NCBI RefSeq assembly: GCF_013044505.1
Contig: NZ_JABERD010000020.1
Coordinates: 1-64,000 of the forward strand
Direction: 5' to 3'
DNA: 64,000 nucleotides
Source of the DNA: Streptomyces sp. S3(2020)
GTDB lineage: Bacteria; Actinomycetota; Actinomycetes; Streptomycetales; Streptomycetaceae
The notes beneath the pieces are model-generated. The model searched no databases, was not told the DNA's origin, and was given only the letters and a program-made list of their open reading frames with translations. Made by a program: the position numbers and the translations under genes. This document shows, one piece after another, positions 30,691 to 46,941 of the stretch (the first letter of the stretch is position 1; every line of letters starts with the position of its first letter).

Positions 30691-31050
30691 TACGGTCTGC
30701 GGGTCCAAGGGGAGTGACCTGTTCGGCATCGTGTGATGGTCATCGAGCGGGGGTGTCCCTATCTGCCCACTGGCACGACGGGGACTGGCAGTGTCGGAAG
30801 GCGAGACGTTTCGACGGTCTTCGAAAAGTTGGCACTTCACTCCGGACGCGTCCTACGTTGAAATCGGGTCGTCACCCTCTCTCCTGCACAGAGGGAACGG
30901 GGTTGGCAGCTGGGCCAGTACAGGGGAATCACGCCGGCTGGATGTGGGGCACCGAGGTCAGGTGGCGCGGCGAGTGCCCCGGTCCCCGCGGGATGCCGTA
31001 GGAACTGTCTCACCGAACACCATGCCGTCATGACAGGGAAGGAACCTGCT
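30691..31050. other. Intergenic region before I36 gene
   Basis: No gene is seen. The segment from about 30810 is relatively AT-rich and contains a loose promoter-like pair (TTGGCA then TACGTT about 19 bases later). The last bases hold a strong GGAAGGA ribosome site for the I36-like gene. Confidence 0.4.
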
Positions 31051-31425
31051 GTGCGCAAGCGCGCCATCAGCACACTGGCCGGAGCCGCCGCCTTCGCGGC
31101 CGTCGTCGTCGCCGCTCCCACGGCCACCGCCGAGCCCAACCCGCCGAACTGTCCCAAGGGGTACTTCTGCGCCTACTCGGAACCGGACCAGCGCGGCGCA
31201 CAGCTGCTCAGGACAGCCGGCAACTGGTCGGGCGAGATCCACAACGTCGGCTCCGTGTTCAACAACGGCTACGTCGCCCCCGGCGTCGACCACATCGAAC
31301 TCCTCTACGCCTACACCACATCCGTCCACGTCATCTGCCTGCACTACAACCCCGGCCCCGGCCAGTACAAGGCCAACATCACCTACGCCACCATCGGGAA
31401 AGCCACCTGGCGAGGCGAATGCTGA
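31051..31425 (+). CDS. Secreted I36-type peptidase inhibitor-like protein
   Basis: This 124-residue protein has a Sec signal (KRAISTLAGAAAFAAVVVAA, cleavage after TATA) and a mature domain with CPKGYFCAYSEPDQRGAQLL, the beta/gamma-crystallin-like fold of peptidase inhibitor family I36 (founded by the Streptomyces metalloproteinase inhibitor SMPI). Four cysteines suggest two disulfides. GTG 31051 has GAAGGA well placed. A second I36-like gene follows, so this may be a small extracellular inhibitor pair. Many I36-annotated proteins have no tested inhibitory activity. Confidence 0.75.
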   Translation: MRKRAISTLAGAAAFAAVVVAAPTATAEPNPPNCPKGYFCAYSEPDQRGAQLLRTAGNWSGEIHNVGSVFNNGYVAPGVDHIELLYAYTTSVHVICLHYNPGPGQYKANITYATIGKATWRGEC

Positions 31426-32559: not shown

Positions 32560-32769
32560 TCACGGTCGGACGAATGAGCGGGACTTCGAGCGAACCGCCC
32601 AGAAGTGGATCGCGAGGCCGATGCCCCAGCCCAGAATCGACCACAAGGGCCAGAAGAAGTGGTCCGGAGTGAGGATCCCCCACAGCAGCACCTGGGCGAG
32701 ATTGGCGATGACGTACCAGAACAGATGGATCCGCAGGCCCCACTTCAGGGCCTTTTCGCTCTTGTGCAT
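32560..32769 (-). CDS. Small 2TM-domain membrane protein
   Basis: This 69-residue protein has two membrane helices (HLFWYVIANLAQVLLWGIL and WPLWSILGWGIGLAIHFWAV) separated by a short TPDHFF loop with charged ends. It fits the 2TM domain family (PF13239). GGGAGGG lies five bases before ATG 32769. Function is unknown. It reads toward the DUF4188 pseudogene, perhaps a former operon partner. Confidence 0.8.
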   Translation of the reverse strand: MHKSEKALKWGLRIHLFWYVIANLAQVLLWGILTPDHFFWPLWSILGWGIGLAIHFWAVRSKSRSFVRP

Positions 32770-32819
32770 TTTCCCTCCCAGAGATTATTGGATCGATGCA
32801 CGTGCGGTGCGCGGCGCTG

Positions 32820-33539
32820 TCATCGCGGGAGTGCCTGTTCCTGTACGGCTGTCTCGATGAGGGCCACCGTCGCGCCCGGCCGGGAGACGAACACCATGTG
32901 TGAAGCACCCTCGACCACCTGCGTCTTCGCGCCGGAGCGCTGGGCCATGAACTCCTGTGTCGCCGGTGGGATGATCCTGTCCTCGCCGCTGATGAGGTTG
33001 TAGTTCGGGATCGTGTGCCAGGCCTGCGGACCGGTGGCGGGCTCGCCCAGGGCGGCACCGGTGGCCGGGCGTTGCGCGATCGAGTAGAGGGCGGCTTCCT
33101 CCGCGGACACGTCGGCCGCGAAATGGGGATGGAAGACCTTGGGGTCGATGTACAGGTCCACCTGTCCGTCGGGCAGCGGCACAGGCTTCAGGGACTCGCC
33201 CACGGTGCTGCCCGGAAACTTCTCGACCAGTGCTTGCGCGCTCTCGCCTGTTTCCGGCACGAACGCCGCGAGGTAGACCAGTGCCTTCACGTTCGCGTTT
33301 CCCGCGGCGGCGGCGGAGATGACCGCGCCGCCGTACGAGTGCCCGACCAGGACGATCGGTCCCTCGATGCTTTCCAGCAGTGCCCTGACGTTGGCCGCGT
33401 CAAAGGCGAGGCCACGCAGGGGATTCGGCGCGGCGAGCACGGGATGGCCGTCGGCTACAAGCCGTTTGACGACGGCGTTGAAGCCGCTGCTGTCGGCAAA
33501 AGCTCCGTGTACGAGCACGATCGTCGGATTCTCGCTCAC
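32820..33539 (-). CDS. Alpha/beta hydrolase
   Basis: This 239-residue cytoplasmic alpha/beta hydrolase has the oxyanion strand IVLVHGAFADSSGF, nucleophile elbow VGHSYGG, and a late His in GASHMVFV. It is clearly related to the exported hydrolase at 42.7 kb, which shares VLVHGAFADASGW and VAHSYGG, and also PNPLRG. GTG 33539 gives the natural N-terminus VSENPT; further upstream the frame only encodes AVS repeats from a tandem repeat. It diverges from the saturase-reductase fusion gene. Substrate is unknown. Confidence 0.85.
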   Translation of the reverse strand: MSENPTIVLVHGAFADSSGFNAVVKRLVADGHPVLAAPNPLRGLAFDAANVRALLESIEGPIVLVGHSYGGAVISAAAAGNANVKALVYLAAFVPETGESAQALVEKFPGSTVGESLKPVPLPDGQVDLYIDPKVFHPHFAADVSAEEAALYSIAQRPATGAALGEPATGPQAWHTIPNYNLISGEDRIIPPATQEFMAQRSGAKTQVVEGASHMVFVSRPGATVALIETAVQEQALPR

Positions 33540-33564
33540 CCTTGACCAACCTCTCCTCTGCACG

Positions 33565-33609
33565 ACGGCAGACACGGCAGACACGGCAGAAACGGCCGAC
33601 ACGGCCGGC
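33565..33609. repeat. 9-bp tandem repeat, five units
   Basis: ACGGCAGAC occurs at 33565 and 33574, followed by the variants ACGGCAGAA, ACGGCCGAC and ACGGCCGGC, each exactly nine bases apart. It lies in the divergent promoter region between the hydrolase and the fusion gene. Confidence 0.75.
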
Positions 33610-33842
33610 ATCGGGTTTCGGTTTCGGGTTCTCCCGCACCGCCCGGCCGGCGACCACTTCCTCGAACCGTGATGGCACAGCTGCACACCGTTGCGTTCGA
33701 CGCAAAGCTAGGGCGTCGCACTGGACGGAAAGGGAACACGGCCGGGATGCGGTTCCCGAGGGCCTTCACGGATCATTCAGTCGTCGTCAAGCCGGTGCGG
33801 CCAGCCTGAGCATCCGCTGGACGGACGAATGGGGGCTTGCAG

Positions 33843-36410
33843 ATGGCGCCGCACGAGGAAGCCGATGTGGTGGTGATCGGGTCGGGCATGGGCGGTCTCG
33901 CGGCGGCGCGCGCCATCGCGCAGTTCGGCGGGAAGCGGGTTCTCGTCCTCGAACAGCACTACACGCTCGGCGGGATGACGCACGAGTTCTCCCGCGCGGG
34001 GCGATACCGGTTCGGTACCGGGCTGCACTACGTCAGCGCGAGCGCGGGCCCGTTCCTCGGATTCATGACGGACGGGCGGGCGCAACTCTCTCCGCTGCCG
34101 GACGAGTACGACGCACTGCATTTTCCGGAGTTCGACTTCGCCGTCCCTGCGACGAAGGACCGGTTTCGTGCGCGCCTGAAGGAACGCTTCCCTGCCGAGG
34201 CCGACGCCATCGACGGATTCTTCCGGACCACGCGCTGGGCCATGGCCGGACTGACCGCACGCAATGTCATCGCGTCGTTCCCCTCCGGCGTACGAAAAGC
34301 GGGTGCGCCCCTTGTCCGGCTGCTCTTTCCGTCCGCGTACCGGTCGGTGCGGGACCAGGTTTCCCGCAGCTTCCGCGATCCGCGGCTGCGGGCCGTCCTG
34401 GCCGCGCGATGGGGGCTCTACGGCACTGAGCCGGCAGCCAGCGCGTTCGGCTATCACGCGGCGGTCCCGCTGACCTACTTCATGGAAGGCACCGCACACC
34501 CCGTGGGCGGCCCGCAGGAGCTCAACCGGGTCGTCCTGGAGATCCTCCAACGACACGGCGTGGAGCTGCGCGCCCGGCAGAGGGTCCATGAAGTCGTCGT
34601 CGAGGACGGCAGGGTGGCCGGCGTCGACGTCGAGGACACCGCCACCGGCCGCCGCTACCGGGTACGGACGAACACGGTCGTCTCGGCGACCGGAGTGCGC
34701 AACACGTACGCCCTGATAGGGAAGAGTCACGAACTGGCGGATCTGCCCGAGGAACGGTCGGCGGTCATGCTGTTCCTCGGACTGGACCGGTCTCCGGCCG
34801 AGTTCGGGCTGCGCGGCGAGAACCACTGGTTCATGCCGGACCTCGACGAGCACGGCAGCTTCCACCGGCCCCCGGGGGAAGGCACGCTGTACGTCTCCTT
34901 CGCCTCGCTCAACAACCCGGCCGCCCGCTTCCACACGGTGGAGCTGCTGGAACTGATCGATCCGAAGGTGGTCGACCGGTGGCGCGGGACGTCCGAGGAC
35001 GAACGGCCGGACAGCTACCGCAAGTTCAAGGACGAGCTGACCGAACGGTTGCTCGCCCGCCTGGAGGAACGCTGGCCCGGCTTCCGGGAGACGGTCGCCT
35101 TCGCAGAACTGGCGACGCCACTGTCGTTCGAGACCTATCAGCGCAGCGTGCGGGGATCCTTCTACGGACTCGCGGCGACTCCCCAAAGGCTGCGGTCGGC
35201 GCGAGCGGGATGCCGTACACCGGTCAAGGGCCTGTTCGTGGCCGGACAGGACGCCTGGGGTTCCGGCGTGGTGGGGGCGCTCGCGGGCGGGCTCATGGCG
35301 GCGAACGCGGTCCTGAAACCTCGGCAGTTGGGGACGATGTGGCAGGCCATCCGTGCCGGCGGGGTGACCCGGGAACCCGCCACGCCCTGGGAGGGGTATC
35401 TGCGGGTGGCCGGCACCGAGGCGGTGACCCCGACGGTCCGCAGGATCCGCCTGGAGCCCCTGACCGGGAACGCGATGCCGTTCTCGTTCGCCGCCGGGCA
35501 GTACGTGAAGATCGAGCTGCCCGTCGCCGTCGAGCCGATCGAACGGTCGTACTCGATCTGCAGCGGCCCCGGTGAGGACGGCTTCGTCGAGATCGCTGTG
35601 AAGCACGAGCCGGACGGGCTCGGCTCGGGATTCCTGCACGAGGAACTGGAGGCCGGGCCGGCATTGCGGGTGAGCGGCCCGCACGGCGAGTTCACCTGGG
35701 ATCCGGGCACCGAGGAGAGCACACTCCTGCTCATCGCCGGGGGAGTGGGCGTCACCCCGCTGATGAGCGTCCTGCTCGCGGCCGCCGACGCCGGTCACAC
35801 GGGGCGGATCGTCCTGCTGGCGAGCTACCGGACCGAGGACGAGGTGCTGTTCGGGCCGGAGATCGCGGCGCTGCGGTCCCGGCTGCCCGGGCTGGAGGTG
35901 TCGGTCTTCATCACCGACCGGACAGGGCGGATCGGGTTCGACGCACTGCTGCCTCATGCCGGCCCCACGACCCGCGTGCACCTGTGCGGGCCGGCGCCCA
36001 TGATGCAGGACCTGATCGGCTGCCTGAGGGAACTGGGGGTGCCGCGAGAGGCGATCCGCACCGAGGCGTTCGTGTCGGGCCGGAGCAAGGAGACCCGCCG
36101 CGAAAGGGCGCACGCTATCGCCCTCGCCGCGGCGGAAGCGGGTGTCACCGAGTTCCGGATCGGCACGGCCGGCGATACCCCGGCGTTCCCTTGCAACCCC
36201 GGGCAGTCGATCCTCGACGCCGCCAACGCCGTCGGCGTCGCCATGCCCCAGTCGTGCGGCGAAGGCGCGTGCGGTACCTGCCGGGTGAGGGTGCTCTCCG
36301 GCCGCTACGAGACCGACGATCGGGGGATGTTCTCCGCGGACGAGTTGGCGGCGGGCTGGCGGCTGGCCTGCCAGACACTGCCCACCGGGGACCTGGTGAT
36401 CGGCCAGTAG
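33843..36410 (+). CDS. Retinol-saturase/carotenoid-isomerase-like flavoprotein fused to 2Fe-2S reductase
   Basis: This 855-residue fusion has residues ~8-490 as a RetSat/CrtISO-type FAD protein: VVVIGSGMGGLAAA, then VLEQHYTLGGMTHEF, RFGTGLHYVS and the C-terminal FVAGQDAWGSGVVGALAGG. Residues ~510-855 are a complete phthalate-dioxygenase-reductase-type module. It has flavin site R568-S-Y570-S, NAD(P) site G633-G-V-G-V-T-P639, and a C-terminal plant-type ferredoxin with Cys805-x4-Cys810-x2-Cys813-x29-Cys843. Enzymes of the first type act on polyene double bonds, and isomerases of this group need reduced flavin, so the tail could feed electrons from NAD(P)H within one chain. No membrane helices or signal are evident. 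ATG 33843 has GGGGG seven bases upstream. It heads a 13-kb rightward block. Confidence 0.85.
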   Translation: MAPHEEADVVVIGSGMGGLAAARAIAQFGGKRVLVLEQHYTLGGMTHEFSRAGRYRFGTGLHYVSASAGPFLGFMTDGRAQLSPLPDEYDALHFPEFDFAVPATKDRFRARLKERFPAEADAIDGFFRTTRWAMAGLTARNVIASFPSGVRKAGAPLVRLLFPSAYRSVRDQVSRSFRDPRLRAVLAARWGLYGTEPAASAFGYHAAVPLTYFMEGTAHPVGGPQELNRVVLEILQRHGVELRARQRVHEVVVEDGRVAGVDVEDTATGRRYRVRTNTVVSATGVRNTYALIGKSHELADLPEERSAVMLFLGLDRSPAEFGLRGENHWFMPDLDEHGSFHRPPGEGTLYVSFASLNNPAARFHTVELLELIDPKVVDRWRGTSEDERPDSYRKFKDELTERLLARLEERWPGFRETVAFAELATPLSFETYQRSVRGSFYGLAATPQRLRSARAGCRTPVKGLFVAGQDAWGSGVVGALAGGLMAANAVLKPRQLGTMWQAIRAGGVTREPATPWEGYLRVAGTEAVTPTVRRIRLEPLTGNAMPFSFAAGQYVKIELPVAVEPIERSYSICSGPGEDGFVEIAVKHEPDGLGSGFLHEELEAGPALRVSGPHGEFTWDPGTEESTLLLIAGGVGVTPLMSVLLAAADAGHTGRIVLLASYRTEDEVLFGPEIAALRSRLPGLEVSVFITDRTGRIGFDALLPHAGPTTRVHLCGPAPMMQDLIGCLRELGVPREAIRTEAFVSGRSKETRRERAHAIALAAAEAGVTEFRIGTAGDTPAFPCNPGQSILDAANAVGVAMPQSCGEGACGTCRVRVLSGRYETDDRGMFSADELAAGWRLACQTLPTGDLVIGQ

Positions 36411-36633: not shown

Positions 36634-39600
36634 ATGGGAAAAGGAATGGCTTCCTCCGGCGCTTCACCGCGTCTGCAGATCCTCGGTCCATTGCGGATCT
36701 GGCGGGACGGCGTCGAACTGGACCCCGGGCCTCGGCAGCAGTCGCACCTGCTCGCGATCCTGCTCGCCCGCGCCGGCAGGCCGATCAGCACGAGCGAGCT
36801 GGTCGACCTGATCTGGGCCGAGGACGTCCCGGCGTCGGCCGTGAACATTCTCCAGAAGTACGTCGGTGCGTTGCGGCGGCTGTTCGAGCCTCTGCTGCCC
36901 GCCCGTGAGGCCGGCTCGTTCCTCCACCGGCGCGGCAATTCCTACCTTCTCGACGTCGACTCCGCCACGTTGGACCTCGTCGCTTTCCGAGAACTCGTCG
37001 ATGCCGCCAGGGCCGCGCTGACTCGCCACGATCACGAGACGGCCCTCGGCCACTACGTCGGAGCGCTCGGGCTCTGGCACGGCGCGGCGGGCGACGGCAT
37101 CGCCGACGGGACGGTCGCCACGCCGGTCTTCGCCGCACTCGACCATGAGTTCTACGACGCGTGCACGGCGGCGGCGGAGCTCGCCGTGTCGATCGGCCGA
37201 CCGGAGCGGGTGCTCGCGGCACTGCAACTGGCCGCGTCGATGGCACCGTTCGACGAACCCGTGCTGGCCGCCCTCATCGGCGTTCTCGGCGCTACCGGAC
37301 GGCAGGCGGAGGCGCTGTCGGTGTTCCGTCAGGCCCGCGACCGGCTCGCCGAGGAGCTGGGCATCGACCCGGGTCCGGCGCTGGAGGACTCACAGCGGCG
37401 GATTCTCACGCAGGCCCCGGCGTCGCAGCTGGTACGGGAGAGCGAAGAGGAGGCCGGGCGGACCACGGCGGCCACCTTGATCGGCCGCACCGAGGAACTC
37501 GCCACGCTGCGACGCATGGTGGAGCGCGCACTCGCCGGCGACACCGCGATCGGCGTTGTCGAAGGCGAGCCGGGCGCGGGCAAGACCCGGCTGCTGGAGG
37601 AGGCCGCCGCCGTGGCGGGCCGACTGGGCGCACTCACCGTCTGGGGCTCCTGCCTGGAGGGCGAGGGAACACCGGCGATGTGGCCATGGGAGCAGGCGCT
37701 GAGCCAGGTCGTCCACAGTCTGCCCGCTCCGGCGGGCGAACAGTGGCTCACGGGCGGCCTGGGAAGCCTCCTCGCGGCGCGGGACGACGCGACCCGGGAG
37801 GTTCCCGACGCCAACGCCCAGTTCCGGCTGTTCGAACAGGTCGTCGCCCTCCTCGGACACGCCTCGGCGCGGCGGCCGACACTCCTGATACTCGACGACC
37901 TGCAATGGGCCGACGCCACCTCCCTGCAGCTGTTGCAGCACCTGGCGGGACGGCTGCCCCAGGGCACCGCGCTCATCGGTGCGTTGCGTGACCGCGCTCC
38001 CACACTCAGCCCGGACCTCTCCCGGGTGCTGGCCGCCGCCAGCCGGCGGCCCGGTCACCGCAGGTTCCGGCTCGGCCCGCTCGGTCCGGCCGACGTGGCC
38101 GAACTCATCCGCCACGAGGCCGGCCAGGATCCCGGCGACGCCGTCGCCCGCGCCATACACGCCCGCACCTCGGGCAATCCGTTCTTCGTCCGCGAACTGT
38201 CCAGGCTCCTCAGCGGGACCGGCGCGATCGAGGACGGCGACACGCCCGCACCGGCCGGGGTCCCCTCCACCGTCCATGACGTCGTCCGCGACCGGATGGC
38301 GGGGCTCGACGACCGCGCCCGCGACCTGCTGCGTGTGGCCGCGCTCATCGGCCGCGACGTCGATCTCAGACTTCTGTCCCGTGCCACCGGAGTGGGCGTC
38401 GCGGACTGTCTCCATCGCCTGGAACCACTGCACACCCTCGGGCTGCTGGAACCCGGGCCGCAGGACCCGTCCTCGCTCCGCTTCGCCCACGACCTCGTAC
38501 GCGAGTCGGTCTCCCAGACCGCGACGACACAGCAGGTCACCCGCGTGCATCTGCGCGTCGCGGACGCGCTCGAACAGATCCACGCCGACGACGAGGACGT
38601 CGCCGAACGCCTCGCGTACCACCTGTGGGCCGCCGGCCCCCTCGCCGAGCCCGTTCGCGTCGCGGAGGCACTGATCCGCGCCGGCCGCCGTGCCGCGGCC
38701 AAACTCGCCTTCGAGTCCGCCAACCGACAGCTGCGCTCCGCCATACAGGTCGCCCGGGCCACCGGACTCATGGAGCTCGAGTTCTCCGCCCTCACGCTGC
38801 TCGCCATCGTCGTCAGACGAGAGGCGGGGTACGACGCCTCGACCTTCGACCTGCTGGAGCGGGCCGAATACCTGGCCCGCACCCTCGGCCGGGAGGCGGA
38901 GGCCGCCGACTTCCTCTTCATCCGTGTGATGGGTGCCTACACCTCCATGGAGAAGGGCCGCGGGCAGTTGGCCCGCCGTATGCACGAGCTCGGTCAGGTG
39001 TCGTCGGATCCGGCCGTCCGACGCTACGGCCGGCACGTCTGGGGCCTGCGTCAGTGGGACGTCGGCAACATCGGCGAGGCGTACCGGTCCTTCGTCAAAG
39101 AGGATGTCGCCATCGCCGGCGGCGCCGTCGCCCCGGACGAGGAGACACCGCTCCGGCGGGACGGCAGCATTCCCGGGGAAGGGCCCGGCTGGCGGGCCGT
39201 CATGACCGCGCTGCACGGCGATGTCGAGGTGGCACTGGCTTTCGTCGACACCTGGGACAGCCCGGGTGACCCCTACGCGGCCGCGGTCTGGGTCTACTAC
39301 ACGACCATGATCGCTTCCATGGCCGGGGACGCCGAAGCGGCACGGCGAGCCGGCGAGCGGTGGGTCGCCGCAGGCCTCGACCGTCTCCGCACCCTGATCG
39401 ACCACTACGTCCGCCAGTACTGGTGCTGGGCACGCGCCCTCACCGGCGAGGATCCGGCCGGCGCCGCCGCCGAGGCCGAGGAACTCCTGGTCGGCAACCT
39501 GCTCCACCCGCCGCAATGGGGCATCGCCTACCACTACGCGCTGATCGCCGAGATGTGGCTGGCGGCCGGACTGCCCGATCGGGCCGACGCCGCTCTCGAC

Positions 39601-39813
39601 CGGGCCGACCAGGCGGTGTGGGACTACGGCCAGCGCTACGCCGAAGGACTGCTCCTGCTGCTGAGGGCGCGCCTGCTTCAGGCCCGCGGCGCACCCCTCA
39701 TCGCTGTCCGGGCCGCCGCCGAACGGGCCTACACGCAATCCACCGCATGCGAGGCGCACCTCTTCGCGCGACGTGCTGAACGACTCCTCTCACGACTCGG
39801 AGGCAATGCGTGA
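36634..39813 (+). CDS. SARP/AfsR-like regulator: winged helix, BTAD, ATPase, TPR-like
   Basis: This 1059-residue multidomain regulator has an OmpR-type winged helix (~10-95, including ISTSELVDLIWAEDVP and NILQKYVGALRRLF) and a BTAD helical domain (~105-250, ending LAEELGIDPGPALED). An AAA/STAND ATPase follows, with Walker A G-E-P-G-A-G-K317-T and Walker B LLILDDLQWAD (Asp421/Asp422), and then long helical repeats to the end. Such proteins are large pathway activators in Streptomyces. No C-terminal LuxR helix-turn-helix was seen. ATG 36634 and ATG 36646 are both possible. The aminotransferase gene overlaps its stop (GTGA), so they are co-translated. It likely activates this block. Confidence 0.88.
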   Translation: MGKGMASSGASPRLQILGPLRIWRDGVELDPGPRQQSHLLAILLARAGRPISTSELVDLIWAEDVPASAVNILQKYVGALRRLFEPLLPAREAGSFLHRRGNSYLLDVDSATLDLVAFRELVDAARAALTRHDHETALGHYVGALGLWHGAAGDGIADGTVATPVFAALDHEFYDACTAAAELAVSIGRPERVLAALQLAASMAPFDEPVLAALIGVLGATGRQAEALSVFRQARDRLAEELGIDPGPALEDSQRRILTQAPASQLVRESEEEAGRTTAATLIGRTEELATLRRMVERALAGDTAIGVVEGEPGAGKTRLLEEAAAVAGRLGALTVWGSCLEGEGTPAMWPWEQALSQVVHSLPAPAGEQWLTGGLGSLLAARDDATREVPDANAQFRLFEQVVALLGHASARRPTLLILDDLQWADATSLQLLQHLAGRLPQGTALIGALRDRAPTLSPDLSRVLAAASRRPGHRRFRLGPLGPADVAELIRHEAGQDPGDAVARAIHARTSGNPFFVRELSRLLSGTGAIEDGDTPAPAGVPSTVHDVVRDRMAGLDDRARDLLRVAALIGRDVDLRLLSRATGVGVADCLHRLEPLHTLGLLEPGPQDPSSLRFAHDLVRESVSQTATTQQVTRVHLRVADALEQIHADDEDVAERLAYHLWAAGPLAEPVRVAEALIRAGRRAAAKLAFESANRQLRSAIQVARATGLMELEFSALTLLAIVVRREAGYDASTFDLLERAEYLARTLGREAEAADFLFIRVMGAYTSMEKGRGQLARRMHELGQVSSDPAVRRYGRHVWGLRQWDVGNIGEAYRSFVKEDVAIAGGAVAPDEETPLRRDGSIPGEGPGWRAVMTALHGDVEVALAFVDTWDSPGDPYAAAVWVYYTTMIASMAGDAEAARRAGERWVAAGLDRLRTLIDHYVRQYWCWARALTGEDPAGAAAEAEELLVGNLLHPPQWGIAYHYALIAEMWLAAGLPDRADAALDRADQAVWDYGQRYAEGLLLLLRARLLQARGAPLIAVRAAAERAYTQSTACEAHLFARRAERLLSRLGGNA

Positions 39814-41006
39814 CCCCAGGCCCTGAGGAACAGAGCGGGCTGACGACCCTGGCCCGTGGGCTCTCGGCGCCGAAGGGCTTCGTCGACGCCAGCCTGGCCG
39901 CCCCCGCCCCCGGAACGATTCGCCTGCTGGGTGGCATCCCCGCGCCCGCGGCTCTGCCGGTCGAGGCGATCGGCAAGGCATCGGCGCAGCTGTGGCAGGA
40001 CCCCGACGCCGCGGTCGCGAGCCTGCAGTACGCGCCCGCGCGCGGATCCGCCGCGCTGGGCGACTGGATCGCGAAACGGGAGGGCGTCGACCCGAGCCGG
40101 ATCGTGGTGACGAACGGTGGCATGCACGGCCTCGCACTGGCGGTGCTGACCGTCGTCGAGCGCGATGCCACCGTCGCGGTCGACGATCCGGTGTTCCCGG
40201 GCTTCCTGTGGGCCCTGGAGGTGTCGACGACACGGATCCTGCCGGTACCGGTCGTGGCCGACGGCTTCGATGTCGAACACCTCGCCCGGCGACTCGCCAC
40301 CGGCGCCCGGATCGCCGCGGCCTACACCGTGCCCGACTTCCACAACCCCGCCCAGGTCAGCCTCTCGGCGCCGAAGCGACAGGCACTGATCGAGCTCGCC
40401 GAGCGGTACGGCTTCTACGTGATCGTCGACAATCCGTACCGCGAACTGCGCTTCGGCGGCCAGGACCAGGGTGTCGGGGTGTTCAACCAGTCGGACCGGG
40501 CGATCCACGTCAACTCCTTCACCAAGACCCTCGGCCCCGGCTGGCGCGTGGGCTGGCTGGTGCTGCCCGACCACCTCGTGGACCCGGTGACGCGGCTGCG
40601 CAACCGCCTCGACGTACACACCTCCTCGGTGACCCAGGCGATCATCGAACGGCTGCTCACCGACGACGACCAATGGTTCGACCGGACCGTGGAAAGCGCC
40701 GCCGCGCTGTACCGAGAACGCGCCGGCGTGCTGATCGACGCCCTGGAGGAACAACTCCCGGGCGCCCTCGACATCGTGGCCCCCGAAGGCGGGCTGTTCC
40801 TGTGGCCTCGGCTCACCGACGACGCTGTGGACCCGGCGGCACTGTTCCAGCGGGCGGCCGCCCACGGCGTGATCTACCAGCCGGGCGAGTTCTTCGCGGC
40901 GGACCCCCGGCAGCGGTCCTCGGCCCGGCACCTGCGGTTGTCCTACAGCGACCGCACCCCGGAAGAACTGCGAGAGGCCGTACGCCGGTTGGCGCTGGCC
41001 TTCTGA
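39810..41006 (+). CDS. PLP-dependent class I/II aminotransferase
   Basis: This 398-residue fold-type I aminotransferase resembles the MocR-domain/2-aminoadipate aminotransferase group. It has RIVVTNGGMHGLAL, the cofactor-stacking region VDDPVFPGF, VDNPYRELRFG with the PLP-nitrogen Asp, and the Schiff-base lysine K239 in VNSFTKTLGPGWRVGWL; the substrate Arg is in RHLRLSY. No N-terminal GntR helix-turn-helix is present, so it is an enzyme rather than a regulator. GTG 39810 overlaps the regulator stop. It probably supplies or consumes an amino acid for the pathway in this block. Confidence 0.85.
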   Translation: MTPGPEEQSGLTTLARGLSAPKGFVDASLAAPAPGTIRLLGGIPAPAALPVEAIGKASAQLWQDPDAAVASLQYAPARGSAALGDWIAKREGVDPSRIVVTNGGMHGLALAVLTVVERDATVAVDDPVFPGFLWALEVSTTRILPVPVVADGFDVEHLARRLATGARIAAAYTVPDFHNPAQVSLSAPKRQALIELAERYGFYVIVDNPYRELRFGGQDQGVGVFNQSDRAIHVNSFTKTLGPGWRVGWLVLPDHLVDPVTRLRNRLDVHTSSVTQAIIERLLTDDDQWFDRTVESAAALYRERAGVLIDALEEQLPGALDIVAPEGGLFLWPRLTDDAVDPAALFQRAAAHGVIYQPGEFFAADPRQRSSARHLRLSYSDRTPEELREAVRRLALAF

Positions 41007-41058: not shown

Positions 41059-42411
41059 ATGACCAACGTTCGGCTCCCTCTGCGCGCACTCGTCCCGTTC
41101 GCCGCCGGCTCGGTCGGCATGGGCATCTGGGTCACCGTGCCGGGCATCTTCCTGCTGTACTTCCTCACCGACGTGCTGGCCGTCCCGCCGTACACGGCCG
41201 GTCTCGCGCTGCTGCTGCCGAACGTCGCCGACATCGTGACGCACCCGTGGGTGGGCCGGATCTCCGATGCCGGCCTGGCCGCCGGCGGACACCGTCGGCC
41301 ACTGATGCTGGCCGGCTGCGTCGTGGTGCTCGCCTTCGTGGCCCTGTTCGCCGTGCCGTCGGACCTGCACGGGACGAGTGCCGCGATATGGGTCGCGGTG
41401 GCGCTGGTCGCCGGCAACCTGCTCTACTCGTGCTACCAGGTCTCCTACCTCGCCACACCGGCCGACCTGGGCATCGGCTACCACGAGCGGACCCGTCTCA
41501 TGGGCTACCGCAGCGTCGTGATCATCGTGAGCGTCCTGCTCGCCGGTGTGGCCGCGCCGCTGGTCGCCGGGGACGATCCGGGCGTCGGCGACTACACGAG
41601 AATGGCCCTGCTGCTCGGCGTGGTCATGCTCGCGGCGATGCTGGTCGGCATCAACGGCGTCGCCCGCCTCAACCGGGCCGCGCCGGGGACTCCGGCCGAA
41701 CCGGGGCACCGGGGCGGGCTGCTGGTGGCGCTGCGCGACCGGCAGTTCCGTGCGCTGACCGCGTCCTATCTGACCGTCGCGATCGCGATGAACCTCGTAC
41801 TGGCCGCCATGCCGTACTTCGCCGAGTACGAGCTCGGCCGCGCCTCCCTCACGACCGTGCTCATCGCGGCGTTCATGGCGCCGGCGGTCCTGACCACACC
41901 CCTGTGGGTACTGGTGGCCCGGCGTCTCGGCAAGCAACGCAGCCTGCTCGGCGCTCAGGCGGCGTTCGTGGCCGGCTCGCTGGTGCTGGCCCTGGGGGCC
42001 GCGGCGGGCCTGCCCCTGCTGATCGCAGCCGTGGCCGTGCTGGGCGTGGCGTTCGCCGCGATGCAACTGATGCCGCTGTCGATGGTGCCCGACGTCATCG
42101 CCGCCGCCGGGCCGGCCGGTACCGCCAACGCGGGCAGCTACACCGGCCTGTGGACCGCCGCCGAGGCCACCGGCGGCGCACTGGGGCCGTACATCTACTC
42201 GGCCTGCCTGGCCGCGGGCGGATTCGTGGCCAGTACCGCAGGCGAACACACCACACAGTCCTCCGGCGCGCTGGCGGCCGTTCGCTACGGCTTCACCTTG
42301 GTGCCGGCCGCGCTCATGACGATCGCCATCGTGTTGCAGCGCCGGTACACCTTGGACAAGAACGCCCACACCGCGCCGCCTGCCGTCGCCCAGGAGAAGG
42401 CAGTGGGATGA
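41059..42411 (+). CDS. GPH-type MFS symporter
   Basis: This 450-residue 12-helix transporter of the glycoside-pentoside-hexuronide (MelB-like) branch of MFS has the N-terminal LVPFAAGSVGMGIW, the cytoplasmic acidic motif HPWVGRISDAG and the loop GIGYHERTRLMGYRSVV. GPH members are cation symporters for sugars or related polar compounds, but bacterial clusters also use them to move other products. GGAAGG lies before ATG 41059. It follows the aminotransferase by 52 bp in the same direction. Confidence 0.82.
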   Translation: MTNVRLPLRALVPFAAGSVGMGIWVTVPGIFLLYFLTDVLAVPPYTAGLALLLPNVADIVTHPWVGRISDAGLAAGGHRRPLMLAGCVVVLAFVALFAVPSDLHGTSAAIWVAVALVAGNLLYSCYQVSYLATPADLGIGYHERTRLMGYRSVVIIVSVLLAGVAAPLVAGDDPGVGDYTRMALLLGVVMLAAMLVGINGVARLNRAAPGTPAEPGHRGGLLVALRDRQFRALTASYLTVAIAMNLVLAAMPYFAEYELGRASLTTVLIAAFMAPAVLTTPLWVLVARRLGKQRSLLGAQAAFVAGSLVLALGAAAGLPLLIAAVAVLGVAFAAMQLMPLSMVPDVIAAAGPAGTANAGSYTGLWTAAEATGGALGPYIYSACLAAGGFVASTAGEHTTQSSGALAAVRYGFTLVPAALMTIAIVLQRRYTLDKNAHTAPPAVAQEKAVG

Positions 42412-42661
42412 AGTAGCAGAAGGTGCGGTGCTTGCGCGGGTGGCGGCGTTGCCGAACGTGATCCGGCGCGCGGCCTGGCTCTCGCAGATACCTGTATCGG
42501 CTTCTTCCGCAGGCTGGTTCGACGTGCTTGACGACAACGGAACTGACGGTGAATCGACCCCGGGAGGGAGCCGAATTCCTGTTCAGTGCCCGTCAAGTGA
42601 CCGGTTTTACGCTGAGCCGCGATCACCACCGAGAGCACCGGATATCGAAGGGCATATATCG
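42412..42661. other. Intergenic region before exported hydrolase
   Basis: No gene is visible in these 250 bases. A GAAGGG ribosome site stands nine bases before ATG 42662. A TTGACG at about 42528 could be a -35 element, but no convincing -10 follows at normal spacing. Confidence 0.4.
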
Positions 42662-43465
42662 ATGACGACAACTCGCCGGGGGCTGTTGGCCGGCTCCGCC
42701 GCCGTCGTGGTGGGTGCCGCACTCGACGCGCCCGCTGCACAGGCACACACCGGAAGCGGCAGTGGCAGCGGCCGGAAGCCCACCGTGGTACTCGTGCACG
42801 GCGCGTTCGCCGACGCCTCCGGCTGGAACGGGGTCGCCTCCCGGCTCATCCGCGACGGCTATCCGGTCATCGCGCCGCCCAACCCGCTGCGCGGCGTGGC
42901 CTCCGACTCCGCCTATCTGGCAAGCATCCTCGCGACCCTCAGCGGCCCGCTCGTCCTCGTCGCGCACTCCTACGGCGGGATCGTCGTCACGAACGCCGCG
43001 ACCGGCAACCCGAATGTGAAGGCGCTGGTCTACGTCAACGCGTTCGTGCCCGATCAAGGCGAGACACTTCTCGGCCTGCAGACGAAATACCCGGGAAGCA
43101 GGCTCAGCGAGGCGGCGCTGGATTTCCGTCCCTACGGAGAGGGCCTCGTCGACGGATACATCAAGAAGGAGTTCTTCCACGACGTGTTCGCCGGGGACCT
43201 GCCGAGGACGACCACCGAACTGATGTGGGCCGGCCAGCGGCCGGCGGACGTGCGCGCCCTCGGGGAGCCGTCCGGCGCCCCGGCCTGGAAGACCGTTCCC
43301 TCCTGGTACCTCGTGGGCCGCGACGACCAGGTGCTGCCCCCGGCGGCCCAGCGGTTCATGGCGCGCCGGGCCGGCGCCCACACCTTCGAGGCCGACACCT
43401 CGCACGTCGCGATGATCGCGCGGCCCGCCGCGACGGCCGCCCTCGTCAAGCGCGCCGCGCGCTGA
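42662..43465 (+). CDS. Exported alpha/beta hydrolase
   Basis: This is a 267-residue alpha/beta hydrolase with an N-terminal export signal (TTTRRGLLAGSAAVVVGAAL, Tat-like RR, cleavage near AQA). It carries VVLVHGAFADASGW, nucleophile Ser in VAHSYGG, and the late His in DTSHVAMIA. It is a paralogue of the cytoplasmic hydrolase at 32.8-33.5 kb, sharing the PNPLRG and VYxxAFVP motifs. The two paralogues flank the saturase-SARP block, one inside the cell and one outside. It is followed within 18 bp by the MMPL transporter gene. Confidence 0.85.
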   Translation: MTTTRRGLLAGSAAVVVGAALDAPAAQAHTGSGSGSGRKPTVVLVHGAFADASGWNGVASRLIRDGYPVIAPPNPLRGVASDSAYLASILATLSGPLVLVAHSYGGIVVTNAATGNPNVKALVYVNAFVPDQGETLLGLQTKYPGSRLSEAALDFRPYGEGLVDGYIKKEFFHDVFAGDLPRTTTELMWAGQRPADVRALGEPSGAPAWKTVPSWYLVGRDDQVLPPAAQRFMARRAGAHTFEADTSHVAMIARPAATAALVKRAAR

Positions 43466-45699: not shown

Positions 45700-46941
45700 A
45701 TGCATCAGCGCGCGTACGACGGCCAGTGCACCGCGGAGGAACAGCGGCACACCAACGCGAAGTCACCCATCAGGAACCCCAAACTGACCTTGTTCGCACT
45801 GGCGTTGGGCACCTTCGCGATCGGCGCCGGCGAGTTCGGCAGCAACGGCATCATCCAGCTGTTCGCGTCCGACCTGGGCGTGTCCGTTCCGGTCGCCACC
45901 TACGCGATCACCGCATACGCGTTCGGGGTGATGATCGGCTCCCCGGCCATCACCCTGCTCGCCGCCCGCATCAACCGGCGCACGCTGCTGCTCGGCCTGA
46001 TCGGGCTGTTCCTCGTCGGCAACGCCCTCTCCGCCCTGGCGCCGAACATCGTGCTGTTCGTCGTCTTCCGGTTCGTCACGGGCAGCGTGCAGGGTGCCTT
46101 CTTCGGCGCCGGGGCCGTCGTCGCCGCGTACGTGTACGGGCCGGGCAAGGGCGGCAAGGCGTTCGCCACCGTGATGGGAGGACTCACCCTCGCCACCATC
46201 GCAGGGTCGCCGCTCGGCACCTTCGTCGGCCAGCACGCCGGCTGGCGCGTCATGTACGGGACCGTGGTCGCCGTCGGCCTGCTCGCCGGAGCCGCCCTGG
46301 TGGCCTGGCTGCCGCGCACCGACGACCTGCGCGGCAGCTCCCTCACCGGCGAACTGGGCGCTCTGCGGCGGCGGGGCGTCTGGCTGATGGTCACCGTCGC
46401 GGCGCTCGGCATCTCCAGCATCTTCGCCGTCTACACGTTCATCGGTCCGTTCGTCACCGACGCGGCGCTGCGGGACGCCTCGCTCATCCCGGTCGCGCTC
46501 GCCGTCTTCGGCCTGGGCATGGCGGTCGGCAACCACATCGGCGGACGTGTCGCCGACCGGTACGACAACCGCGGTCTGACCTGGGGCTACGGCGGTGTTC
46601 TGGCGTTCCTGGTGCTGATCGGTGTGGCGGGCGACAACCTGGTCATCCTGCTGCCCTGCCTGTTCGGCGTCGGCGCGACCATGATGTTCGCGATCCCCAC
46701 CATCCAGGTCCGCTTGACCGCGTTCGCACCGGACGCCCCGACCCTGATGGGAACACTCAACCTGGCCGCCCTCAACCTGGCCAACTGCCTCGGCGCGATC
46801 GGCGGCGCCGTCGCCCTCGACGCCGGCTGGGGGACCCTGTCCACCGTCTGGGCCGGCTTCGCCCTCACCACCGCCGGTCTGCTCCTGTACGTCATGACCG
46901 TCGCCCGGGTGAAGCCGGCGCCCCTTCTGGTCCGCTCCTGA
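45700..46941 (+). CDS. MFS efflux transporter (DHA1-like)
   Basis: This 413-residue, 12-helix major facilitator of the drug:proton antiporter DHA1/AraJ-like group has a helix-1 motif LGTFAIGAGEFGSNGIIQLF, loop ARINRRTLLLGLIGL and FRFVTGSVQGAFFGAGA. ATG 45700 is chosen for the AGAGGA seven bases upstream; the preceding frame runs back through the MMPL gene without a family match. It is the last gene of the rightward block and probably exports the product or an intermediate. Confidence 0.87.
   Translation: MHQRAYDGQCTAEEQRHTNAKSPIRNPKLTLFALALGTFAIGAGEFGSNGIIQLFASDLGVSVPVATYAITAYAFGVMIGSPAITLLAARINRRTLLLGLIGLFLVGNALSALAPNIVLFVVFRFVTGSVQGAFFGAGAVVAAYVYGPGKGGKAFATVMGGLTLATIAGSPLGTFVGQHAGWRVMYGTVVAVGLLAGAALVAWLPRTDDLRGSSLTGELGALRRRGVWLMVTVAALGISSIFAVYTFIGPFVTDAALRDASLIPVALAVFGLGMAVGNHIGGRVADRYDNRGLTWGYGGVLAFLVLIGVAGDNLVILLPCLFGVGATMMFAIPTIQVRLTAFAPDAPTLMGTLNLAALNLANCLGAIGGAVALDAGWGTLSTVWAGFALTTAGLLLYVMTVARVKPAPLLVRS

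Follow-up and report, generated by a model that had tools for sequence, protein, structure and literature searches.

Known relatives of the fusion

The natural source of reduced flavin for RetSat- and CRTISO-type enzymes is often unclear, and RetSat itself is known only as a stand-alone protein without an electron donor module. Here we analyze a stretch of 64,000 nucleotides from the soil actinomycete Streptomyces sp. S3(2020) (contig NZ_JABERD010000020.1, positions 1 to 64,000; hereafter the window) in which, unlike in RetSat, a flavoenzyme domain of the same superfamily (the N-domain) is joined in one 855-residue chain to a flavin adenine dinucleotide (FAD)/NAD(P)/2Fe-2S reductase. An earlier note, made from the sequence alone, had proposed that this fusion is a self-sufficient polyene reductase or isomerase.

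What do the closest described systems do? RetSat converts all-trans-retinol to 13,14-dihydroretinol (PMC8950952). CRTISO needs reduced FAD, and CRTI supplied with reduced FAD isomerizes prolycopene; CrtI has FAD as its sole redox cofactor and oxygen or quinones as acceptor (PMC3382138). These CRTISO/CrtI-type enzymes resemble the N-domain in fold and profile, but the N-domain scores under both curated cut-offs. IkaB, a phytoene-dehydrogenase homologue of tetramate macrolactam pathways, closes the two outer rings, in a cyclization called reductive in the title of a cited paper; IkaB-type enzymes are flavin-dependent like the N-domain, act on polyene precursors in actinomycetes, and are encoded beside a polyketide synthase/nonribosomal peptide synthetase gene (PMC11724479), whereas no such gene was recognized among the fusion neighbors scanned.

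The closest printed precedent is ctmABEF of Castellaniella defragrans, in which the parts are kept separate. There, limonene dehydrogenase CtmAB clusters with the 2Fe-2S ferredoxin CtmE and the NADH:ferredoxin oxidoreductase CtmF, and the system oxidizes limonene, a net oxidation, with CtmAB acting on an allylic terpene position (PMC4109377). Both systems tie a COG1233 flavoenzyme genetically to 2Fe-2S and NAD(P)H reductase parts; CtmAB/E/F are, however, separate proteins with two catalytic subunits (PMC4109377), while the fusion is one chain with one COG1233-type domain. We rejected a CtmAB-type limonene dehydrogenase as its identity, since the window and each fusion locus hold one COG1233-type domain and the reductase is fused. 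Self-sufficient cytochrome P450s (CYP116B; 6kbh and 6laa) likewise place a catalytic domain before a flavin/NAD(P)H/2Fe-2S reductase in a single chain, but theirs is a haem P450 domain and not a flavin oxidoreductase; this identity was rejected too, as no P450 was among the 13 Pfam families found.

The earlier note knew of no characterized example, and we likewise found none described in the open-licence full-text literature, from which subscription papers are mostly absent. As far as that literature was searched, the parts and their chemistry are known and the one-chain arrangement is undescribed in this superfamily.

A complete flavoenzyme and reductase in one conserved chain

Is the fusion a real and complete gene? 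Translation of 33843-36410 on the plus strand gives 855 aa and a terminal stop, with internal stops absent; the start is an ATG, with an in-frame TTG 6 bp upstream. The gene and its parts are laid out as follows (window coordinates).

33843..36410, plus strand: fusion flavoenzyme gene; 855 aa in a single frame; 19 full-length relatives
33843..35312, plus strand: N-domain, residues 1-490; FAD oxidoreductase of the CrtI/CRTISO/RetSat superfamily, with GSGMGG at 13-18 and EQH at 37-39
34026..34028, plus strand: codon of His62, present in 38/39 aligned N-domains; possible covalent-flavin position, from a printed consensus only (PMC11061730)
35313..35387, plus strand: junction/linker, residues 491-515; equal length in 16/20 fusions
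35403..35699, plus strand: FAD_binding_6 (Pfam), residues 521-619, with RSYS at 568-571
35730..36011, plus strand: NAD_binding_1 (Pfam), residues 630-723, with GGVGVTP at 633-639 and CGP at 715-717
36174..36386, plus strand: Fer2 (Pfam), residues 778-848; plant-type 2Fe-2S domain with C805, C810, C813 and C843

FAD_binding_6, NAD_binding_1 and Fer2 all score above their Pfam gathering scores, and the N end matches FAD-type Rossmann families, several of them above cut-off. The one-chain architecture read in the earlier note is thus confirmed, down to the motifs it quoted (EQHYTLGG at 37-44, GTGLHYVS at 58-65 and the GGVGVTP stretch) and to its intact flavin site and four cluster cysteines.

We aligned the query with its 19 full-length relatives, from 20 assemblies in all. 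The fused frame is kept in every sequence, 270 residues are invariant, and each of 18 tabulated reductase and cluster residues is present in 20/20. A break at the junction into two genes, or a frameshift, had been named in the earlier note as what would undo its claim; the relatives display none. Ratios of nonsynonymous to synonymous substitution rates (dN/dS; Nei-Gojobori script, query versus 9 of the 19 relatives) were 0.15-0.22 for the N-domain, 0.23-0.41 for the FAD/NAD part and 0.22-0.42 for Fer2, so that every domain lies below 0.45, with 0.13-0.74 for the 25-residue linker. The fusion is under purifying selection. The same rare fusion is also found in other bacteria, with the same partner genes alongside, from which we conclude that it is real; it is conserved and complete within a single chain.

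The two halves

What kind of enzyme is the N-domain? Over about 490 residues it is a FAD oxidoreductase of the CrtI/CRTISO/COG1233 superfamily, as judged by Rossmann Pfam families, sequence matches and, more weakly, fold. The RetSat/CrtISO-like label of the earlier note holds for the superfamily and needs one correction of detail: with 100.7 bits against the CRTISO equivalog TIGR02730 (carot_isom; curated cut-off 586.9) and 105.8 bits against the CrtI phytoene desaturase family TIGR02734 (cut-off 238.1), the N-domain is not a true CRTISO and lies outside the CrtI family model. Its nearest solved relatives by sequence, among 60 of 78 chains listed, are gamma-carotene desaturase 4rep and CrtI 4dgk, and Foldseek with the predicted structure returned 4rep at E 2.3e-18 and 4dgk at E 1.3e-14. 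The structure used was an AlphaFold model built from 20 close sequences, and since its mean predicted local distance difference test score is only 67 (best in the reductase half), the fold evidence for the N-domain is weak. VIA-align found no CrtI-type chain among the best 50 of 1000 rows, nearly all of which cover residues 511-746. No RetSat-named family occurred among the Pfam matches or the 25 of 72 NCBIfam matches listed for the fusion, nor a RetSat chain among the 60 solved chains listed. The GTGLHY region (a G-x-H-Y motif) and an S-F-(A/P)-S stretch presumably resemble RetSat.

Delta24-desaturase holds its flavin covalently through a histidine close to the N terminus, within G-F-L/R-X-N/S-T/L-H-A, and both CtmAB subunits are said to contain this consensus (PMC11061730). 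Comparison with this printed consensus makes His62 a possible covalent-flavin residue. His62 is invariant in the fusions and lacking in the CrtD-like outgroup; the residue before it in the fusions is L (18) or V (2), and the remainder of the consensus is unmatched.

The reductase half, with its three Pfam domains and four cluster cysteines, is a FAD/NAD(P)/2Fe-2S reductase of the PaaE/Hcr order. Its best NCBIfam profile is PaaE (TIGR02160), at 162.5 bits against a cut-off of 420.8, so PaaE itself was rejected. Among the best 50 of 1000 VIA-align rows, residues 512-746 match FAD/NAD modules confidently by fold (Z 27-30, root-mean-square deviation 1.8-2.3), among them flavohaemoglobin 4eh1 (Z 30.1, deviation 1.8 across 223 residues), GcoB (5ogx, Z 28.3), T4moF, benzoate dioxygenase reductase and NqrF; Protein Data Bank matches of this half include the CYP116B structures named above. 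Modules with the FAD-NAD-2Fe-2S order usually pass electrons forward from NAD(P)H.

Distribution and origin

How widespread is the fusion? The full-length relatives come from 18 GTDB loci and one relative genome (G068; G and L numbers are our handles for genomes and loci) and are 58-89% identical to the query. The GTDB scan used short query patterns and reached close relatives only, which makes 18 loci a lower bound. Carriers at 67-89% identity belong to Streptomyces, Actinacidiphila, Dactylosporangium, Paractinoplanes/Actinoplanes, Winogradskya, Acrocarpospora, Herbidospora, Nonomuraea and Sphaerisporangium, one of them the culturable Streptomyces canus DSM 40017 (L031); more distant are Promicromonospora (64%) and Bradyrhizobium elkanii WSM2783 (58%). 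At least 3 of the 199 searched relatives carry a recognizable fusion, namely the own genome (G000), G068 and, in decayed form, G022, and E = 0 was reached in G000 and G068 only among the 173 genomes with a listed best E-value. In the G022 copy (L062:9574-10141), residues ~77-203 and ~768-838 remain and abut, which implies that the middle was deleted. In even draws, scored with two candidates per genome, 396 genomes of the phylum yielded the own genome and G234 at E ≤ 1e-100, and 394 genomes of the class yielded, at E ≤ 1e-60, the own genome together with G013, whose match is a stand-alone N-domain. The fusion is rare and patchy. A plasmid-borne fusion was rejected: in 173 plasmid records at E ≤ 1e-30 no single place spans 80% of the query, and each of the 25 matches listed spans one half only.

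Did the fusion arise once? We built trees for the N-domain (39 rows) and the C-domain (35 rows), with the nearest matches in related genomes as the only comparison rows. In both trees the 20 fusions cluster as a single group (N-domain bootstrap/Shimodaira-Hasegawa-like approximate likelihood ratio test, SH-aLRT, 90/89; C-domain SH-aLRT 94), and for the N-domain all 200 bootstrap trees require just one state change. Against these comparison rows, a single fusion event would be the simplest reading. The Bradyrhizobium copy sits at the base of the group, its order relative to Promicromonospora not settled by the N-domain tree; since all other carriers found are actinomycetes, transfer between phyla, in either direction, is plausible.

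Two further arrangements lie outside the fusion group. A two-gene version occurs in two Streptomyces genomes (L060:7247-9898 in G004 and L061:9491-12159 in G073), where a RetSat/CrtI-like gene is followed, 18 and 20 bp on, by an FNR-Fer2 reductase gene, with ~30% identity to each fusion half; in G004 a search assigned both halves one open-frame length (1034 aa), but direct translation places a stop codon between them, and we follow the translation. A short version in the more distant actinobacterium G234 (L071:1126-3408; 2.1-Mb genome) is a 760-aa chain that joins an N-domain to an FNR module with no Fer2 behind it, and it was not found in four other genomes of that family (E ≤ 1e-60). Coupling of this kind of flavoenzyme to an NAD(P)H reductase thus recurs. 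By eye, L071 is divergent from a TetR-like gene, and P450-like genes lie near the L061 pair. Stand-alone N-domain homologues have neighbors of ABC transporter, FabA/acetyl-CoA-carboxylase-type and HxlR families (L063, L065 and L066; few proteins), and no common theme emerged from the 3/6 loci with wide flanks that were scanned. One of these, L066:8253-14108 in G089, lies amid FabA-like dehydratase and acetyl-CoA-carboxylase-like genes, a likeness to a polyketide/fatty-acid-type cluster.

Gene neighborhood

Which genes accompany the fusion? The neighbor listing that the earlier note proposed brought out recurrent partners. We searched window neighbors and genes from other loci against 19 loci, 18 from GTDB plus the region from G068 (tblastn, E ≤ 1e-8; some loci end at contig ends). 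The 2TM query came from L044 and the cyclic nucleotide monophosphate (cNMP)-binding query from L043, and these source loci are counted among the matches.

33612..33842, no strand: divergent intergenic region; fusion-proximal part more conserved by eye, possible promoter
32820..33611, minus strand: abH1, alpha/beta hydrolase, start codon uncertain; match in 15/19 loci, directly divergent in 11/19
32593..32838, minus strand: 2TM-like stretch (PF13239) behind abH1; 44% identity to the L044 protein, match in 13/19 loci
36634..39813, plus strand: SARP/BTAD-AAA regulator, 1059 aa; match over 800+ residues in 12/19 loci
39810..41006, plus strand: pyridoxal-phosphate-dependent MocR-like aminotransferase; 4-bp overlap with the regulator gene, 6/19 loci
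41059..42411, plus strand: GPH/MFS_2 transporter; 6/19 loci, one truncated by the locus end
42659..43465, plus strand: abH2, second alpha/beta hydrolase, start uncertain; 50% identity to abH1, 4/19 loci

abH1 is an Abhydrolase_6 protein whose nearest solved relatives are the alpha/beta-fold hydrolase 8hfw (E 1.5e-10) and salicylic-acid-binding protein 2 (E 9e-9). In a search of 120 relatives at E ≤ 1e-75 it occurred in G000, G068 and G022 only, the very genomes that carry the fusion. A single in-frame TGA interrupts the G022 copy, and as both genes are damaged there, they appear to decay together. This co-occurrence makes abH1 the best candidate partner of the fusion, although the genes form a single neighborhood and shared transfer therefore explains part of it.

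Counting any match, some of them remote, the SARP regulator reaches 15/19 loci. A Pfam/NCBIfam scan found no helix-turn-helix or other DNA-binding family in the MocR-like aminotransferase, and abH2, with an N end that looks signal-like by eye, is probably exported. A gene fusing cNMP-binding and thioredoxin-reductase-like (Pyr_redox_2) parts occurs in 6/19 loci (for example, L034:6161-8068 and L043:13015-14622); the L043 query had no window match at E ≤ 1e-3. Within the intergenic region, positions 33700-33842 look better conserved than the rest in a nine-locus alignment and may hold a promoter or operator. Farther out, 45721-46896 encodes an MFS transporter homologue downstream of an MMPL gene (79% identity to that of L040), and 31030-31425 encodes a small protein that carries a peptidase inhibitor I36 domain and, by eye, a signal-like start.

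Elsewhere in the own genome, contig C65 has two squalene/phytoene-synthase-family genes side by side, C202 a weaker third and C34 one RPE65-family gene; no CrtI-family gene scores above cut-off (best 197.8 versus 238.1 bits). Since none of these carotenoid-type genes is on the contig of the window, they neither support nor exclude a carotenoid link.

Proposed function and alternatives

What might the fusion do? Slightly better than even (about 0.55), in our estimate, is that it is a self-contained enzyme running from NAD(P)H through FAD and 2Fe-2S to the N-domain FAD, most likely saturating C=C bonds of a lipophilic substrate, with abH1 probably in the same pathway. This reading builds on the observed domains, cofactor residues, single frame, conservation, selection, common descent of the halves and abH1 co-occurrence. 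For the path and direction of the electrons we infer that NAD(P)H would bind the C-terminal FNR module and reduce its FAD; the plant-type 2Fe-2S cluster would take single electrons and hand them to the FAD of the N-domain; and the reduced N-domain flavin would act on a C=C bond in an unsaturated, lipophilic compound, perhaps an isoprenoid, an apocarotenoid or a polyketide polyene. The chemistry of the single domains is well established in their families. The fusion would act on an unsaturated lipid, most likely by reduction, with isomerization or oxidation less likely; the most likely outcome would be saturation with stoichiometric use of NAD(P)H. abH1 would probably release or consume an ester or acyl form of the substrate or product.

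The self-sufficiency claimed in the earlier note is upheld in part: the single-chain fusion is complete, and the reductase in it could supply electrons to the flavin of the N-domain. The adjacent two-gene pairs of L060 and L061, together with the L071 fusion, support our reading by Rosetta-stone logic. Several points weigh against our preferred function. The N-domain alone does not tell a reductase from an isomerase or dehydrogenase, and the nearest characterized system, CtmAB with CtmE/F, nets oxidation (PMC4109377). The short L071 chain, which has no Fer2, implies that the 2Fe-2S cluster is not always needed. An abH1 match is absent from 4/19 fusion loci as covered (L036, L039, L045 and L048), and its co-occurrence may reflect one transferred island and not shared function. 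Finally, the scanned neighbors include no recognizable polyene or carotenoid pathway.

Could the enzyme instead be a self-sufficient isomerase, in which the reductase serves only to hold the flavin of the N-domain in its reduced state for a non-redox, CRTISO-like cis-trans or double-bond shift? The need of CRTISO for reduced FAD, and the isomerization of prolycopene by CRTI given reduced FAD (PMC3382138), speak for it, as does the rank of TIGR02730 among the better N-domain profiles; its score is nevertheless far under the CRTISO cut-off, and a fixed reductase would be wasteful for an electron-neutral reaction. We regard an isomerase as unlikely, and favor a saturase over it because a saturase better explains a permanent, stoichiometric electron supply.

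An oxidative direction is conceivable because the ctm cluster oxidizes limonene (PMC4109377). The fusion would then be an allylic dehydrogenase or water-using hydroxylase, CtmAB, CtmE and CtmF in one chain, with NAD(P)+ accepting the electrons that leave by way of 2Fe-2S and FAD. The presence of a 2Fe-2S ferredoxin and an NADH:ferredoxin oxidoreductase in the same cluster as CtmAB (PMC4109377) is in line with this, as are the kinship of CtmAB with an oxidizing enzyme, delta24-desaturase, and the partial resemblance of the His62 motif to their covalent-flavin consensus (PMC11061730). CtmAB is, however, a heterodimer of two COG1233 chains, and no second N-domain copy was found in the window (E ≤ 1e-3) or the 19 fusion loci (E ≤ 1e-8). 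The hosts, moreover, are mostly aerobic actinomycetes, and a PaaE/Hcr-type module normally runs forward. We hold this direction, too, to be rather unlikely.

Less probable again is a reductase half that serves another partner in trans, such as a P450 or Rieske oxygenase, with the N-domain independent of it. Such modules often serve several partners, and stand-alone reductase homologues are numerous among relatives, at about 28-38% identity; yet the unfused halves are adjacent in two genomes, another FNR fusion exists (L071), and the eight neighboring window proteins scanned showed no oxygenase family. That two genes were joined through a frameshift or a sequencing or assembly error is excluded by the identical frame in all 20 assemblies, with nothing found in its favor.

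What would the self-contained, NAD(P)H-driven reading mean? Tentatively, and with the odds against so full a description, the fusion may be the first enzyme of the RetSat/CrtI superfamily to be self-sufficient: a polyene or isoprenoid saturase in one chain, driven by NAD(P)H and equipped with two flavins and one 2Fe-2S cluster, possibly with a His62-bound substrate flavin and a dedicated partner hydrolase, carried as a mobile actinomycete module. If so, the question of how RetSat-type saturases obtain electrons would become testable within one protein. A natural chain fed with NAD(P)H by a built-in module would open the superfamily's chemistry to tests and reveal the electron donor needed, and the fusion could serve as a useful biocatalyst for C=C reduction or isomerization. 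The gene module of fusion, hydrolase, 2TM protein and regulator offers a concrete handle for the substrate search.

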